Below, piece after piece: positions 13,650 to 17,611 of a stretch of DNA of 64,000 nucleotides. The first letter of the stretch is position 1. The number at the start of each line of letters is the position of its first letter. The notes beneath the pieces are model-generated. The model made no database searches. It was not told the origin of the DNA and was given only the letters and a program-made list of their open reading frames with translations. The DNA comes from Leptolyngbya sp. KIOST-1. Lineage in GTDB: Bacteria; Cyanobacteriota; Cyanobacteriia; Phormidesmidales; Phormidesmidaceae. The DNA is taken from assembly GCF_000763385.1 (NCBI RefSeq), contig NZ_JQFA01000002.1, positions 1,922,001 through 1,986,000 on the forward strand, written 5' to 3'. Position numbers and translations under genes: made by a program.

Positions 13650-14234
13650 CTAGGGCTCGCCCCGCATCATCAGTGGCTGCCACTCGCTGTAGCCTTCCAG
13701 GTGGCCCCAGTAGGCACGGACGCCGATGACGGCCCAGATCAGCGCCGCCACGATCAGCACCACGGCCCCTACGGTGCGCCAGATTTTGTTGTTGCGCAGA
13801 TACACCAGGGTGGGGGCGGCCAGCACCCCGCCCAGCCCCGTCAGCAGAAAGGCCAGCCCCGCCACCAGCGGTTGCAGGGTTTGACCCAGATTGACAATAC
13901 GCGCGCCCACCAAAATTGCAGTGAGACCGGCAAAAAAGGCGTAGACCGCCAGCGAAAGCAGATCCCACCCCTGAGCGATCGCGATCGCCGCCGCCACGTA
14001 CAGCCCGCCAAACAGCACCGTGGTTTCGCCAAAGGAGATATTGAAGCTGCCGGGGACAGGCCAGGTTAGGGTCATGTGCAGACCGGTGACCAGGGCGATC
14101 GCCCCCACCAGTCCAAAGCCCGGGATCCATCGTTTCAGATTGGCCCCATCTAGTCCGCGGTAGACAAAGTCAGCCAGCAGCACCAGCCCCGCTGACATAT
14201 TGATCAGCATGAGGGTGATGTAGTTGATAAACAT
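13650..14234 (-). CDS. DUF981 family integral membrane protein
   Basis: 194 residues with six predicted membrane helices (about 4-25, 40-60, 70-88, 92-112, 118-142 and 153-173). The opening INYITLMLINMSAGLVLLA and the loop MTLTWPVPGSFNISFGE fit the DUF981 family of prokaryotic membrane proteins with unknown function. It is divergent from the riboswitch-controlled symporter; about 280 bases separate its start from the aptamer. Confidence 0.7.
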   Translation of the reverse strand: MFINYITLMLINMSAGLVLLADFVYRGLDGANLKRWIPGFGLVGAIALVTGLHMTLTWPVPGSFNISFGETTVLFGGLYVAAAIAIAQGWDLLSLAVYAFFAGLTAILVGARIVNLGQTLQPLVAGLAFLLTGLGGVLAAPTLVYLRNNKIWRTVGAVVLIVAALIWAVIGVRAYWGHLEGYSEWQPLMMRGEP

Positions 14235-14507
14235 GGCAATCGGCCCAATGCAACGCTTTATATCCTATCGATCCATGGGTGGCGGGGATAGACATGCGAT
14301 CGCCCCCCAACCCTTAGCCTCGCCACTCAAGATGATGAAACGATGACATAAAGCCAGCTCAACCGTAGTGATAGATACTTCGTTGGCCTATGGCTAGTTG
14401 ATAGAACCTAGTTAATTCGCTCACGCATAAAGTTCTTTGTTTTTGGAGCTTTCTAGACTAAGCACTCAAAAACAGAGGTATGGATTGCCTTTAGAAAACT
14501 TGAGAGT
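14235..14507. other. Gene-free stretch upstream of the guanidine riboswitch
   Basis: About 270 bases with no plausible gene on either strand. It must contain the promoter of the DUF981 gene (leftward) and that of the riboswitch-symporter transcript (rightward). I could not pick a clear -35/-10 pair. Confidence 0.4.
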
Positions 14508-14640
14508 AGAGCACCTAGGGTTCCGACTTAGCAGCTAAGATTTTTTGAGGTCTTGATCTGGCTAGGGGACTGGTCCGAGAGGTGCAGCCGGGCGGCGATT
14601 GTGGCCTGGTTCACGGAGGGATAAAAGCCCGGGAGAAATA
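14508..14640 (+). ncRNA. Guanidine-I (ykkC) riboswitch aptamer
   Basis: The conserved ykkC blocks appear in order: CTAGGGTTCCG (14515-14525), ACTGGTCCGAGAGGTGC (14569-14585), TTCACGGAGGG (14610-14620) and ATAAAAGCCCGGGAGA (14621-14636). This combination is diagnostic of the guanidine-I class, which binds free guanidinium and usually activates export, carboxylase, hydrolase or import genes. The spacer between the first and second blocks holds the variable P1b-type stem. The aptamer lies about 90 bases upstream of the symporter ATG and on the same strand. The call rests on sequence recall; covariance scoring was not run. Confidence 0.92.
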
Positions 14641-14685
14641 GCCCAGTTCTATAGGAATTGGCATTTTACTCCTGGGTTTTCTTGT
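14623..14685 (+). terminator. Expression platform: terminator mutually exclusive with the guanidine aptamer
   Basis: The aptamer's 3' strand CCCGGGAG (14628-14635) can pair over its full length, with one G-U, to CTCCTGGG at 14669-14676. AAAA at 14623-14626 can also pair to the following TTTT, and a T-rich tail TTTTCTTGT (14677-14685) comes next. The same GCCCGGGAGA segment is required in the folded aptamer, so guanidine binding should block the terminator. This is the ON-switch logic known for the class. The pairing is seen directly; the regulatory outcome is inferred. Confidence 0.75.
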
Positions 14686-14730
14686 ATCTTCCGCTCGATA
14701 GTCACGAATCTAGGTCAGGAGCCTAACGGT

Positions 14731-16230
14731 ATGGAACATAGTGCGTTTTCCTACGGCATCATTGCCTTTTTGCTCGGGACGCTAGGCATTGGGGTGTGGG
14801 CCTCCAGACAAATTAAGGGCGACAGCGTCAATTTTTTGGTGGCCGGCCGAGGGCTGGCTTTACCCTTAGCCGCAGCCACGCTGATGGCGCAGTCGGTCGA
14901 CTCTAACGCCACCTTGGGCAACACCGACCTCGCTTCAGAGTTTGGCTTTTGGGCCGGGGCGGCGCTACCCATCGGGTTATCCCTCTGCCTCTTTTTGACC
15001 GGACTGATTTTGGCTAAGCCCATGAACCGTATGGGGCTGATTACCATCCCCGACTTCTATCGGGTCAAATATGGCCGCACCGTAGAACTGGTGGCCGCCT
15101 GCATTATGTGCGTCAGCTTCTCATTTCTGCTGGCGGGCAACCTGGTGGCTGGGGGCTACATGTTTCAAGACTTTCTTGGCACTAGCTATACCGGCGGCAT
15201 TACTCTGCTAGCGCTGCTGGTGCTGGTCTACACGGTGTCAGGCGGGCTGTTTGCGGTCGCCTACACCGACTTCATTCAGGTGATGATTGCCCTGGTGGGG
15301 GCCTGGGCTCTGTTGGCTTACGTAGTAGCCAACTTTGGCATCAGCATTGACTCCGGCATGGGGCCAGCCGCGCTGGATCAGCTGACTGCCGTGAGTTCTG
15401 GGGCGGCGATTAACTGGGCTAGCATCATTGCCCTGGGCTTTGGCAATATGGTGGCGATCGACTTTATGGCCCGCATCTTTGCTGCCGAAAGCCCAGAAAC
15501 GGCCCAGCGGGCCTGCTTGATTGCCTCGGCTGGCACGCTGATTATTGGTATTCCCTTTTCAATTATTGCGTTAGGGGCGGGGGGGATTCTCAGCCAGGCG
15601 GGCATTGTGCCCGATGGACCGGTGCTGTTTGCCCTGCTGAGGGAAGTCGTGCCACCCCTGCTGGGGCTGCTGGTGTTGGCAGCAATTTTGTCGGCCTCCC
15701 TATCTACCGCCGACGGCGCGATCTTAGGCACCTCGTCGGTGCTGGCCCACAATGTGATGGGCATTCGCCATGCCACGGCCCACGGGGCCGGGGGCGACAG
15801 GCTGCTGCTGATCACCCGCCTCATGGCCGTAGTTATTACGGTGGTGGGGGTGGTGCTGGGCCTGCGGGTACCCCAAACCGGGGTGCTGCTGCTGCTGGCC
15901 TTTGATATGAGCTTTGCCGGGCTGGTGGTGCCGCTGATTGGCGGTCTGTTTTGGGCCAAGGCGACCCGGCAGGGGGCGCTGGCCTGTATTGCGGTGGGGT
16001 CGCTGTCGCGCCTGCTGATGTTTACCCTCATGCCAACCATGTTTGGGGTTGATAACACGCTGCTGTACTTTCCCAACCGCCTGTTCACCGCTGATTTTGA
16101 CGGCTTCCCTACGTTGATTAGCCCGCTGCTGGGTCTAGTGGCCTTTGTGGCCGTGTCGAGGCTGACCTACAAACCGCTCAGAGCTGAACACCAGCGGGCT
16201 GAGGTGCTGGAGGAGGTGCGATCGCTCTAA
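14731..16230 (+). CDS. Sodium:solute symporter (SSS family), candidate guanidine-responsive transporter
   Basis: 499 residues with about 13 membrane helices from the N-terminus on. FLVAGRGLALPLAAATLMAQ, FYRVKYGRTVEL and especially VYTVSGGLFAVAYTDFIQ are SSS signatures, and AILSASLSTADGAILGTSS is the conserved helix 8-9 region with sodium-site serines. The ATG at 14731 follows an AGGTCAGGA ribosome site. A longer frame reaching 14599 lies inside the aptamer and is not the start. SSS members carry proline, pantothenate, urea, sugars or acetate. The guanidine-I leader suggests guanidine or a related compound here. Import or export is unknown, although SSS carriers normally import. Confidence 0.85.
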   Translation: MEHSAFSYGIIAFLLGTLGIGVWASRQIKGDSVNFLVAGRGLALPLAAATLMAQSVDSNATLGNTDLASEFGFWAGAALPIGLSLCLFLTGLILAKPMNRMGLITIPDFYRVKYGRTVELVAACIMCVSFSFLLAGNLVAGGYMFQDFLGTSYTGGITLLALLVLVYTVSGGLFAVAYTDFIQVMIALVGAWALLAYVVANFGISIDSGMGPAALDQLTAVSSGAAINWASIIALGFGNMVAIDFMARIFAAESPETAQRACLIASAGTLIIGIPFSIIALGAGGILSQAGIVPDGPVLFALLREVVPPLLGLLVLAAILSASLSTADGAILGTSSVLAHNVMGIRHATAHGAGGDRLLLITRLMAVVITVVGVVLGLRVPQTGVLLLLAFDMSFAGLVVPLIGGLFWAKATRQGALACIAVGSLSRLLMFTLMPTMFGVDNTLLYFPNRLFTADFDGFPTLISPLLGLVAFVAVSRLTYKPLRAEHQRAEVLEEVRSL

Positions 16231-16243
16231 AGCTGTCGTCGGC

Positions 16244-17611
16244 CTACTTTGAAACCACCTCAGACTCCAGGTCGGGGTGCAGCACCACGGTGGGGGTCAC
16301 CTCTGGCACGGCCTCTTGGACTCGCAGGGTCAGGGGCACCGCAATCAAGAAACAGCCCCCGCCCAGCACCACCGCCAGCAGACGGTTGTTGTCGAGCAAA
16401 TGGGCCATAATCCACCCCAACCCTAGCGAGATCACGATCTCGGGCAGCACAATAAACATGTTGAAAATGCCCATGTAGATGCCGCCTTTGCGGGCAGGCA
16501 ACGCCCCCGCCAGCATGGCGTAGGGCAACGACAAAAGGCTGGACCAGGCCACCCCCAAGCCCAGCATGGGCAGCAGCGCCCAGCGGGGCGACGGCACAAA
16601 CCAGAGGGAAATTAACCCCACCCCGCCACAGGTGAGACAGAGCGCGTGGGCGATCGGGCGACTCGTCATCCTCGCCAGCCGGGGCAGCAAAAACGACATG
16701 CCAAAACAGACGGCATTGTAGGCGGCAATGCAGATCCCCGCCCACTCAATCCCCTGACTGTAAAGAGCCGAAGCCTCATCAGTTGCGCCAAACAGGTTGT
16801 GGGCCACCGCCGTGGGAAAGTACAGAAATACGCAGTACATACCCAGCCAGCTAAAGGCCTGTACCCAGGCCAACTGCCGCATGGTGGCTGGCATGTGTCG
16901 CACGGCGGTGAAAATTTCTCGGCCGGTGGCACCGATGCCCAGTCGCCGTTCCTGCTGCGCTCGAAACGCCTCCATATCGACCGGTGGCCGTTCTGCGGTG
17001 GTAATCACGGTCCACAGAACGGTGCCCAGAAAGAATACAGCGCCGGTGTAGAAGGAAATTTTGACGGCTAATGGGACGTCGTTGGCGGTACTGGCCTGCA
17101 GGTGAAAGACATTCGACAACAACCACGGCAGGGCGGCGGCCAGCACGGCCCCAAGGCCAATAAATAGACTCTGCATGGCAAAGCCTTTGGTGCGCTGCCT
17201 GGGCGGGAGCAGATCGCTAACGAAGGCCCGAAAGGGCTCCATGCTGATATTGGCCGCTGTGTCCAAAATCCAGAGTAAACCTACCGCCATCCACAGGTTG
17301 CCTGCGTTGGGCATCCACAGCAGTGCCAGAGATCCGAAGATGGCTCCAATTAAGAAGTAGGGACGGCGGCGGCCTAATAGGCTCCAGGTGTTATCGCTAA
17401 GGTTGCCAATAATGGGTTGGACGATGAGGCCGGTGAGCGGGGCTGCCAGCCACAGAATCGGAATTTGGTCGGCATCAGCCCCCAGGTGCTCGAAGATGGC
17501 GCTGGTATTGGCCATTTGCAGCCCCCAGCCGAACTGAATGCCGAAAAAGCCAATACTCATATTCCAGAGTTGCCAGAAGCTTAGCTCTGGCTTGGTCTGT
17601 GGTGAAGTCAA
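16244..17611 (-). CDS. MFS transporter of the SLC45/GPH sugar-carrier type
   Basis: 455 residues, 12 membrane helices. SFWQLWNMSIGFFGIQFGWG at the start, IGNLSDNTWSLLGRRRPY (loop 2-3) and DLLPPRQRTKGFAMQSLF fit the SLC45/sucrose-like major-facilitator branch, whose bacterial members carry maltose, sucrose or other sugars. The start is a TTG at 17611, supported by GGAG seven bases upstream. Its stop is 13 bases from the stop of the convergent symporter. The leader is long (about 500 bases to the next gene) with no riboswitch I recognise. Confidence 0.8.
   Translation of the reverse strand: MTSPQTKPELSFWQLWNMSIGFFGIQFGWGLQMANTSAIFEHLGADADQIPILWLAAPLTGLIVQPIIGNLSDNTWSLLGRRRPYFLIGAIFGSLALLWMPNAGNLWMAVGLLWILDTAANISMEPFRAFVSDLLPPRQRTKGFAMQSLFIGLGAVLAAALPWLLSNVFHLQASTANDVPLAVKISFYTGAVFFLGTVLWTVITTAERPPVDMEAFRAQQERRLGIGATGREIFTAVRHMPATMRQLAWVQAFSWLGMYCVFLYFPTAVAHNLFGATDEASALYSQGIEWAGICIAAYNAVCFGMSFLLPRLARMTSRPIAHALCLTCGGVGLISLWFVPSPRWALLPMLGLGVAWSSLLSLPYAMLAGALPARKGGIYMGIFNMFIVLPEIVISLGLGWIMAHLLDNNRLLAVVLGGGCFLIAVPLTLRVQEAVPEVTPTVVLHPDLESEVVSK

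Follow-up and report, generated by a model that had tools for sequence, protein, structure and literature searches.

We analyzed a 64,000-nt stretch of the genome of Leptolyngbya sp. KIOST-1 (hereafter the window), in which a guanidine-I riboswitch stands directly in front of a gene for a sodium:solute symporter (SSS) (Table 1). The gene begins at the first in-frame ATG past the aptamer, and its frame is intact up to the stop codon. A terminator that competes with the aptamer follows it, and a putative site for the nitrogen-limitation activator NtcA lies upstream. That this riboswitch-SSS unit is real, and a variant of the known guanidine-assimilation unit, is well supported by comparison with relatives, which also suggests an undescribed route for the import of guanidine as a nitrogen source. 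An earlier note on this DNA had placed a ykkC aptamer and an intact SSS gene between 14508 and 16230. Both were borne out, the aptamer by an Infernal scan and the gene by a full-model Pfam match; the end of that span is exact, while its start falls 4 bases inside the aptamer.

RF00442 (Guanidine-I) was the sole Rfam family above its gathering score when the whole window was searched with cmscan. The match reached 76.3 bits (cut-off 63, E = 8.5e-12) and covered the full model (1-107); with the covariance model R1, for which the window itself supplied 1 of the 20 training rows, the aptamer scored 81.9 bits. The core blocks are common to the window and 19 other Rfam-scored guanidine-I RNAs, and subtype 1 was judged by this core. 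The ykkC subtypes have most of the aptamer in common (PMC6031431, PMC5912903), so that a subtype-2 variant responding to ppGpp, PRPP or another ligand, with a symporter unrelated to guanidine, has to be considered. We regard it as extremely improbable, given that RF00442 alone reached its gathering score, that the window core matches the guanidine-I set and that the genes associated with riboswitch-SSS loci are guanidinase genes. A chance or degenerate aptamer was rejected because of the RF00442 score and because the same aptamer precedes the orthologous gene in many other genomes. Judged by its class, the window leader would bind guanidinium and switch the gene on.

The encoded protein matches Pfam SSF (PF00474) over the entire profile (1-406 of 406) with 120.4 bits (cut-off 22.8, E = 1.1e-34). 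With each of the nine NCBIfam models that it matched, the general SSS model TIGR00813 among them (116.6 vs. 184, full profile), it falls short of the curated threshold, and therefore no named SSS type fits. Identity with PutP, PanF or ActP was rejected on the scores of the NCBIfam equivalogs (107 vs. 515.5, 81.9 vs. 328 and 27.7 vs. 1099, respectively). The AlphaFold2 model (mean pLDDT 85.1, pTM 0.86) predicts a LeuT-like SSS fold. Its top match in Foldseek was the human choline transporter CHT1 (TM 0.80, 21-23% identity), followed by SGLT, SiaT, NIS and vSGLT, and a sequence search of the PDB also returned CHT1 as the best match (E = 2.9e-22). We counted it in favor of guanidinium that this nearest solved relative carries the organic cation choline. 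The LSASLSTAD stretch and Asp57 resemble residues of the PutP Na+ site. Import by the protein would presumably be coupled to Na+.

DUR3 urea transporters have the same fold (Foldseek ranks 33 and 35-39) and urea is the product of the guanidinase GdmH, so the symporter might instead recover urea that leaks out of the cell after guanidinase action, as DUR3-type members of the family do. This appears very improbable. DUR3 ranked below CHT1 and most SGLT entries and is hence not favored, a guanidine sensor would be a poor trigger for urea uptake, and the SSS gene occupies the importer slot of guanidinase operons and is rare where an ATP-binding cassette (ABC) gene sits there (see below).

Relatives were obtained from one scan of a species genome collection, the best 80 of 102 being kept as 79 loci: 40 cyanobacterial, 27 actinobacterial (mostly Mycolicibacterium/Mycobacterium), three haloarchaeal and nine thaumarchaeal. 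These were searched for riboswitches with a covariance model made from 20 Rfam-scored guanidine-I RNAs, the window included (E up to 0.1). The survey of ykkC-associated SSS genes that the earlier note had proposed thereby gave a guanidine-I riboswitch linked to SSS in 52 of the 79 relatives. It stands directly upstream of SSS in 20 of the 40 cyanobacterial and 23 of the 27 actinobacterial loci, with two weak direct matches (L010, 37.1 bits; L008, 29.8 bits). In nine other loci SSS ends a riboswitch-headed operon, in the order riboswitch-GdmH-HypA-HypB-SSS in 8 of the 40 cyanobacterial loci and riboswitch-GdmH-SSS in L042. GdmH-HypA-HypB-SSS was also found in L028, on a fetched piece that starts near the guanidinase start and is cut at its 5' end. 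Pairs of guanidine-I riboswitches on opposite strands were observed at L020:3383-3879 and L017:40-765; in L020, one of the divergent pair serves GdmH-HypA-HypB and the other SSS.

A tree was built from the window, 49 of the 79 loci (50 SSS rows in all) and four paralogs from KIOST-1, which form very long branches. In it, the window falls into a group with four sequences from directly linked loci, two from Nodosilinea (100/99), and the 12 directly linked actinobacterial rows stand together on one side of a branch (94/100). At least five changes are needed to account for the nine operon rows, so that the link to the guanidine signal repeatedly arose or was rearranged.

Guanidinases near SSS were counted by tblastn with the GdmH of KIOST-1; a clustered GdmH set mixed in antisense frames in GC-rich genomes. 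Ten cyanobacterial SSS loci contain a guanidinase at 87-91% identity. An actinobacterial guanidinase (59-64% identity) is divergent from riboswitch-SSS in 22 of the 23 direct loci (L046, L048-L055, L057, L059-L063, L065-L069, L075 and L078), which come mostly from environmental mycobacteria and suggest guanidine assimilation in this group. Among cyanobacteria, Synechococcus elongatus PCC 7942 has no homologous guanidinase (PMC8390497). One study names Thr97 and Trp305 as the residues for guanidine specificity of the guanidinase (PMC11410670). Thr and Trp are present in all 32 guanidinases near SSS (10 cyanobacterial, 22 actinobacterial), as read from the flanks of alignment columns 102 and 310, two short of the diagnostic residues. 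The guanidinase of L042 gave a partial match, which includes the Trp and does not span the Thr region.

The KIOST-1 genome has three guanidine-I riboswitches, that of the window among them. A second one controls GdmH, about 1.16 Mb from the window on the same contig, and HypA follows. This GdmH matches PDB 7esr/7oi1, which we take to be the Synechocystis guanidinase, over nearly its full length (E = 1.1e-248); T104 and W312, at a constant offset to the PDB chain, are the counterparts of Thr97 and Trp305. The putative importer in the window is thereby under the same riboswitch signal as the guanidinase, and in the eight cyanobacterial relatives and L042 it is in the same operon. No guanidinase homologue was found in the 64 kb of the window (tblastn with GdmH, E up to 1), in agreement with the statement in the earlier note that no hydrolase lies nearby; the GdmH-type partner envisaged there is present elsewhere in the genome under its own riboswitch and, in relatives, beside SSS. 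Four other SSF proteins are encoded in the genome, none of them at any of the three riboswitches.

Behind the third riboswitch (L114:5899-12588, contig C2 near 3.62 Mb) come genes for a type III glutamine synthetase, for an ABC transporter made up of a binding protein of the SsuA family and a TauC/TauB-like permease and ATPase, and for a Rieske-type protein. The stretch read at this riboswitch contains no guanidinase.

The occurrence of SSS, GdmH and the ABC importer was compared across the phylum in the DISPLACEMENT test, which covered 386 sampled genomes (SSS E <= 1e-60, GdmH E <= 1e-80, ABC binding protein E <= 1e-40). An ABC gene was counted as beside GdmH when within 7 kb on the same contig and strand, and contig ends can hide such neighbors. 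SSS was detected in 7 and GdmH in 59 of the genomes, with an ABC binding protein beside GdmH in 46 of the 59. All seven SSS genomes have GdmH (hypergeometric P = 1.4e-6, or 9.3e-6 minus KIOST-1), and SSS is present in 6 of the 13 GdmH genomes without an adjacent ABC gene versus 1 of the 46 with one (G170; Fisher P = 2.4e-4), P values that ignore relatedness, three of the seven SSS genomes being of one family. SSS is rare where an ABC gene stands beside the guanidinase. Riboswitch, GdmH and SSS form one run in three of the seven SSS genomes (G011, G070, G172), and no ABC binding protein at E <= 1e-40 was found in four (G011, G159, G172, G215). G215 gave no guanidine-I match, and the sole one in G159 precedes GdmH. 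Separately, the family f31, with genomes of 1.6-2.5 Mb from another class of the same phylum, makes up 60 of the 121 guanidine-I genomes, yet none of the 59 guanidinase genomes.

The terminator hairpin in the window (-30.8 kcal/mol, z = -3.5) was equalled by 2 of 200 shuffles, and the conserved 3' part of the aptamer serves as its 5' arm. Because aptamer and terminator exclude each other, the leader is predicted to be an ON switch with the ligand response of its class. A scripted search found an equivalent competing hairpin in 27 of the 28 riboswitch-bearing cyanobacterial SSS loci in addition to the window (19 of 20 direct and 8 of 8 operon loci, L004 being the only miss); per locus, 0-3 of 100 shuffles of the downstream sequence gave an equal one. 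In the 23 direct actinobacterial loci the same script returned either nothing or only short helices, for which 11-45 of 100 shuffles did equally well. By extrapolation from the alignment, SSS starts 11-41 nt past the aptamer in these loci, and control may there be exerted at translation.

Upstream of the riboswitch, the window contains GTAN8TAC, which we take to be the NtcA consensus; a class II promoter would presumably have this box and TAN3T about 22 nt further on. A single box in the window proves little because GTAN8TAC is over-represented there (9 sites vs. 3.3 expected from shuffles). The weight rests on the relatives: in 23 of 29 cyanobacterial loci, the window included, the 300 nt preceding the riboswitch contain the box, versus 2.3 expected from single-base shuffles and 28 of 924 windows of 300 nt taken elsewhere in these sequences, near-copies among the 29 upstream regions being L004/L038, L008/L010 and L041/L071. 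A TA is found 22 nt past the box in 21 of the 23 boxed loci (23 nt in the window), and TGnTA after the box in 17 of 23 versus 566 of 13809 background slices. The window has the box and the spaced TA, and its -10 region (TAGAAC) lacks the final T of TAN3T. A strict sigma-70 scan gave no promoter here; the spaced NtcA/-10 layout is visible only by comparing relatives. By this layout, NtcA would bind at the box and transcription would start near 14414. The distance from box to aptamer is mostly 125-165 nt in direct loci (61 nt in L034) and 57-64 nt in operon loci. The third KIOST-1 riboswitch has a box as well, at 108 nt. Elsewhere, the box was found at 1 of the 10 cyanobacterial SSS genes without a riboswitch that were examined, at 3 of 30 further guanidine-I loci in the phylum (all three in f31) and at 0 of the 23 directly linked actinobacterial loci; we know of no NtcA in actinobacteria.

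The box and the spaced -10 element fit nitrogen scavenging rather than efflux. Exporters are common among guanidine riboswitch targets, according to a 2025 review (PMC12186494), and the symporter could in principle export guanidine for detoxification as SMR/Gdx carriers do under other guanidine riboswitches. Characterized SSS carriers are generally known as inward-working Na+ symporters, and this one is paired with a guanidinase and stands where an importer would; in cyanobacteria, most of its riboswitch loci also have an NtcA-type box upstream. We therefore consider export highly unlikely.

Taken together, we propose with a probability of roughly 80% that the window encodes a Na+-coupled guanidinium importer for nitrogen scavenging that would be gated by nitrogen shortage and by guanidine. 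Under nitrogen limitation, NtcA would activate a promoter near 14400, as the conservation of the motif suggests, and the leader RNA would fold into the guanidine-I aptamer. When guanidine is absent, the 3' part of the aptamer would pair with 14669-14680 to form the terminator and the SSS gene would stay off; when guanidine is bound, the aptamer would keep this segment and transcription would continue into the gene. The SSS protein would then import guanidinium together with Na+, and GdmH, encoded elsewhere under the second riboswitch, would hydrolyze guanidine to urea and ammonium, a reaction established for the Synechocystis guanidinase. In other cyanobacteria, the riboswitch-gdmH-hypA-hypB operon ends in SSS, which appears to replace the ABC importer.

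We favor guanidinium as the substrate, and methylguanidine or another small guanidino compound is conceivable. In the latter case, the symporter would carry a relative of guanidine (methylguanidine, agmatine, creatine or guanidinoacetate) that is later converted to guanidine, and guanidine would be only the signal. Other guanidine riboswitch operons handle methylguanidine (PMC12508155); the KIOST-1 operon with the type III glutamine synthetase, the ABC transporter and the Rieske-type protein hints at more substrates, two SSS operons (L023, L028) contain a methyltransferase-family gene, and archaeal relatives adjoin arginase-family enzymes without the guanidinase Trp. In the remaining operons, however, SSS has guanidinase, HypA and HypB as its annotated partners, and the only extra genes between GdmH and SSS are of the methyltransferase family (L023, L028) and the GST family (L024, L028, L035), with no second ureohydrolase. 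We judge this alternative to be unlikely, though it is the strongest of those considered.

The archaeal loci bear on the wider family. None of the 12 archaeal relatives has a riboswitch. Nine of the 12 SSS genes lie near arginase-family genes that encode Glu in place of the guanidinase Trp and are, by this test, not guanidinases; the wider SSS family therefore probably carries other substrates. The SSS proteins in question are about 38-57% identical and encoded within about 4 kb of the Glu-bearing genes, in haloarchaea (L043, L044, L047) and Nitrosopumilus-like archaea (L073, L074, L076, L077, L079, L080). Their substrate may be a different guanidino compound. Positions at which bacterial members differ from thaumarchaeal ones were tabulated and enter no substrate-site argument here.

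Besides these archaeal loci and the relatedness of the SSS genomes, several observations weigh against a guanidinium importer under dual control. No riboswitch was detected near SSS in 11 of the 40 cyanobacterial loci (besides L028) and 3 of the 27 actinobacterial loci; in 10 of these 11 cyanobacterial genomes GdmH is present elsewhere at 85-89% identity, and in seven of the 11 a guanidine-I match, twice below the gathering score, lies just before it. The Hydrocoleum genome (L037) has neither a close GdmH nor a guanidine-I match, and the genomes of L056 and L058 have SSS with neither riboswitch nor close GdmH. In the L070 genome (SSS 44% identical) no GdmH match was found and the riboswitch match is partial and sub-threshold, and the L064 genome has riboswitch-SSS without a close GdmH. 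The methyltransferase-family and/or GST-family genes between GdmH and HypA in L023, L024, L028 and L035 belong here as well, as do G170, which has both the SSS and the ABC system, and KIOST-1 itself, with its ABC binding protein under the third riboswitch. Finally, no box lies within 400 nt of the KIOST-1 gdmH riboswitch, and none was found at the seven other guanidine-I loci of the window's class among the loci sampled.

The features are collected in Table 1. The flanking genes, for a DUF981 protein (13650-14234) and an MFS protein (16244-17611), are both on the opposite strand and not part of the riboswitch-SSS unit.

Table 1. Features of the riboswitch-SSS unit in the window (plain positions) and additional genes in operons of relatives (positions with locus)
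Feature	Position	Strand	Sequence or evidence
NtcA-type box GTAN8TAC, putative nitrogen-limitation activator site	14365-14378	+	GTAGTGATAGATAC, pattern match
Extended -10-like element	14399-14407	+	TGATAGAAC; TA 23 nt past box
Guanidine-I (ykkC subtype 1) riboswitch aptamer	14504-14637	+	RF00442, 76.3 bits, E 8.5e-12
Predicted intrinsic terminator/expression platform	14624-14680	+	fold -30.8 kcal/mol, z -3.5
Terminator 5' arm	14624-14635	+	AAAGCCCGGGAG, conserved 3' part of aptamer
Terminator 3' arm	14669-14680	+	CTCCTGGGTTTT, then T-rich tail
AGGAG, putative ribosome-binding site	14717-14721	+	sequence; 9 nt before ATG
SSS-family sodium:solute symporter, 499 aa, proposed guanidinium importer	14731-16230	+	Pfam SSF, structure model
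Methyltransferase-family gene between gdmH and hypA	L023:1911-2720; L028:1254-2021		
GST-family gene between gdmH and hypA	L024:2154-2762; L028:2148-2753; L035:2075-2692		

Beyond the window, we find it somewhat more probable than its opposite that these proteins form an SSS subfamily dedicated to Na+/guanidinium symport in cyanobacteria and mycobacteria, a third class of guanidine importer besides ABC and APC carriers. The riboswitch would have joined it in more than one way, directly or via the guanidinase operon, and in cyanobacteria an NtcA promoter and the riboswitch would form a gate with two inputs. Such a protein would be a candidate for a compact single-protein guanidine importer, and would explain how cyanobacteria without the ABC system feed their guanidinase. 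Guanidine assimilation would then reach as far as environmental mycobacteria, an SSS subfamily without a named type in Pfam or NCBIfam would gain a candidate substrate, and the NtcA-type box would couple guanidine use to nitrogen status.

Among the publications listed in a literature search, none was found with an SSS gene under a guanidine riboswitch, four central works being beyond reach, so that an earlier listing of SSS is possible. The guanidine-I targets named in the accessible literature are SMR/MATE-type exporters, guanidine carboxylase or guanidinase genes, ABC importers and APC permeases. In its accessible parts, the 2025 review names two routes by which guanidine is imported, ABC importers and an APC permease, and the word symporter does not occur there (PMC12186494). 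An ABC version of the guanidine unit is described for marine picocyanobacteria (PMC10119275).

Compared with known systems, the window riboswitch has the full-length aptamer above the cut-off and the terminator-type ON expression platform of the guanidine-I class (RF00442); it differs in controlling an SSS symporter. Within the SSS family (PF00474: CHT1, PutP, DUR3, vSGLT), the protein has the same predicted fold and a full-length Pfam match, and CHT1 is the closest solved structure both by sequence and by fold. The comammox Nitrospira cluster, in the order guanidine-I riboswitch-APC permease-guanidinase (PMC11410670), likewise pairs a riboswitch-controlled, ATP-independent putative guanidine carrier with a guanidinase. 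Its carrier belongs to the APC superfamily, however, whereas the window protein matches Pfam SSF. The sll1077 (gdmH) operon of Synechocystis PCC 6803 shares the riboswitch class, the guanidinase and the HypA/HypB-type chaperones, and its gene order up to the transporter matches the SSS operons of eight relatives. There, a three-gene ATP-driven ABC importer takes the place that a single SSS carrier has in the relatives, while the SSS gene of the window stands alone under its own riboswitch.

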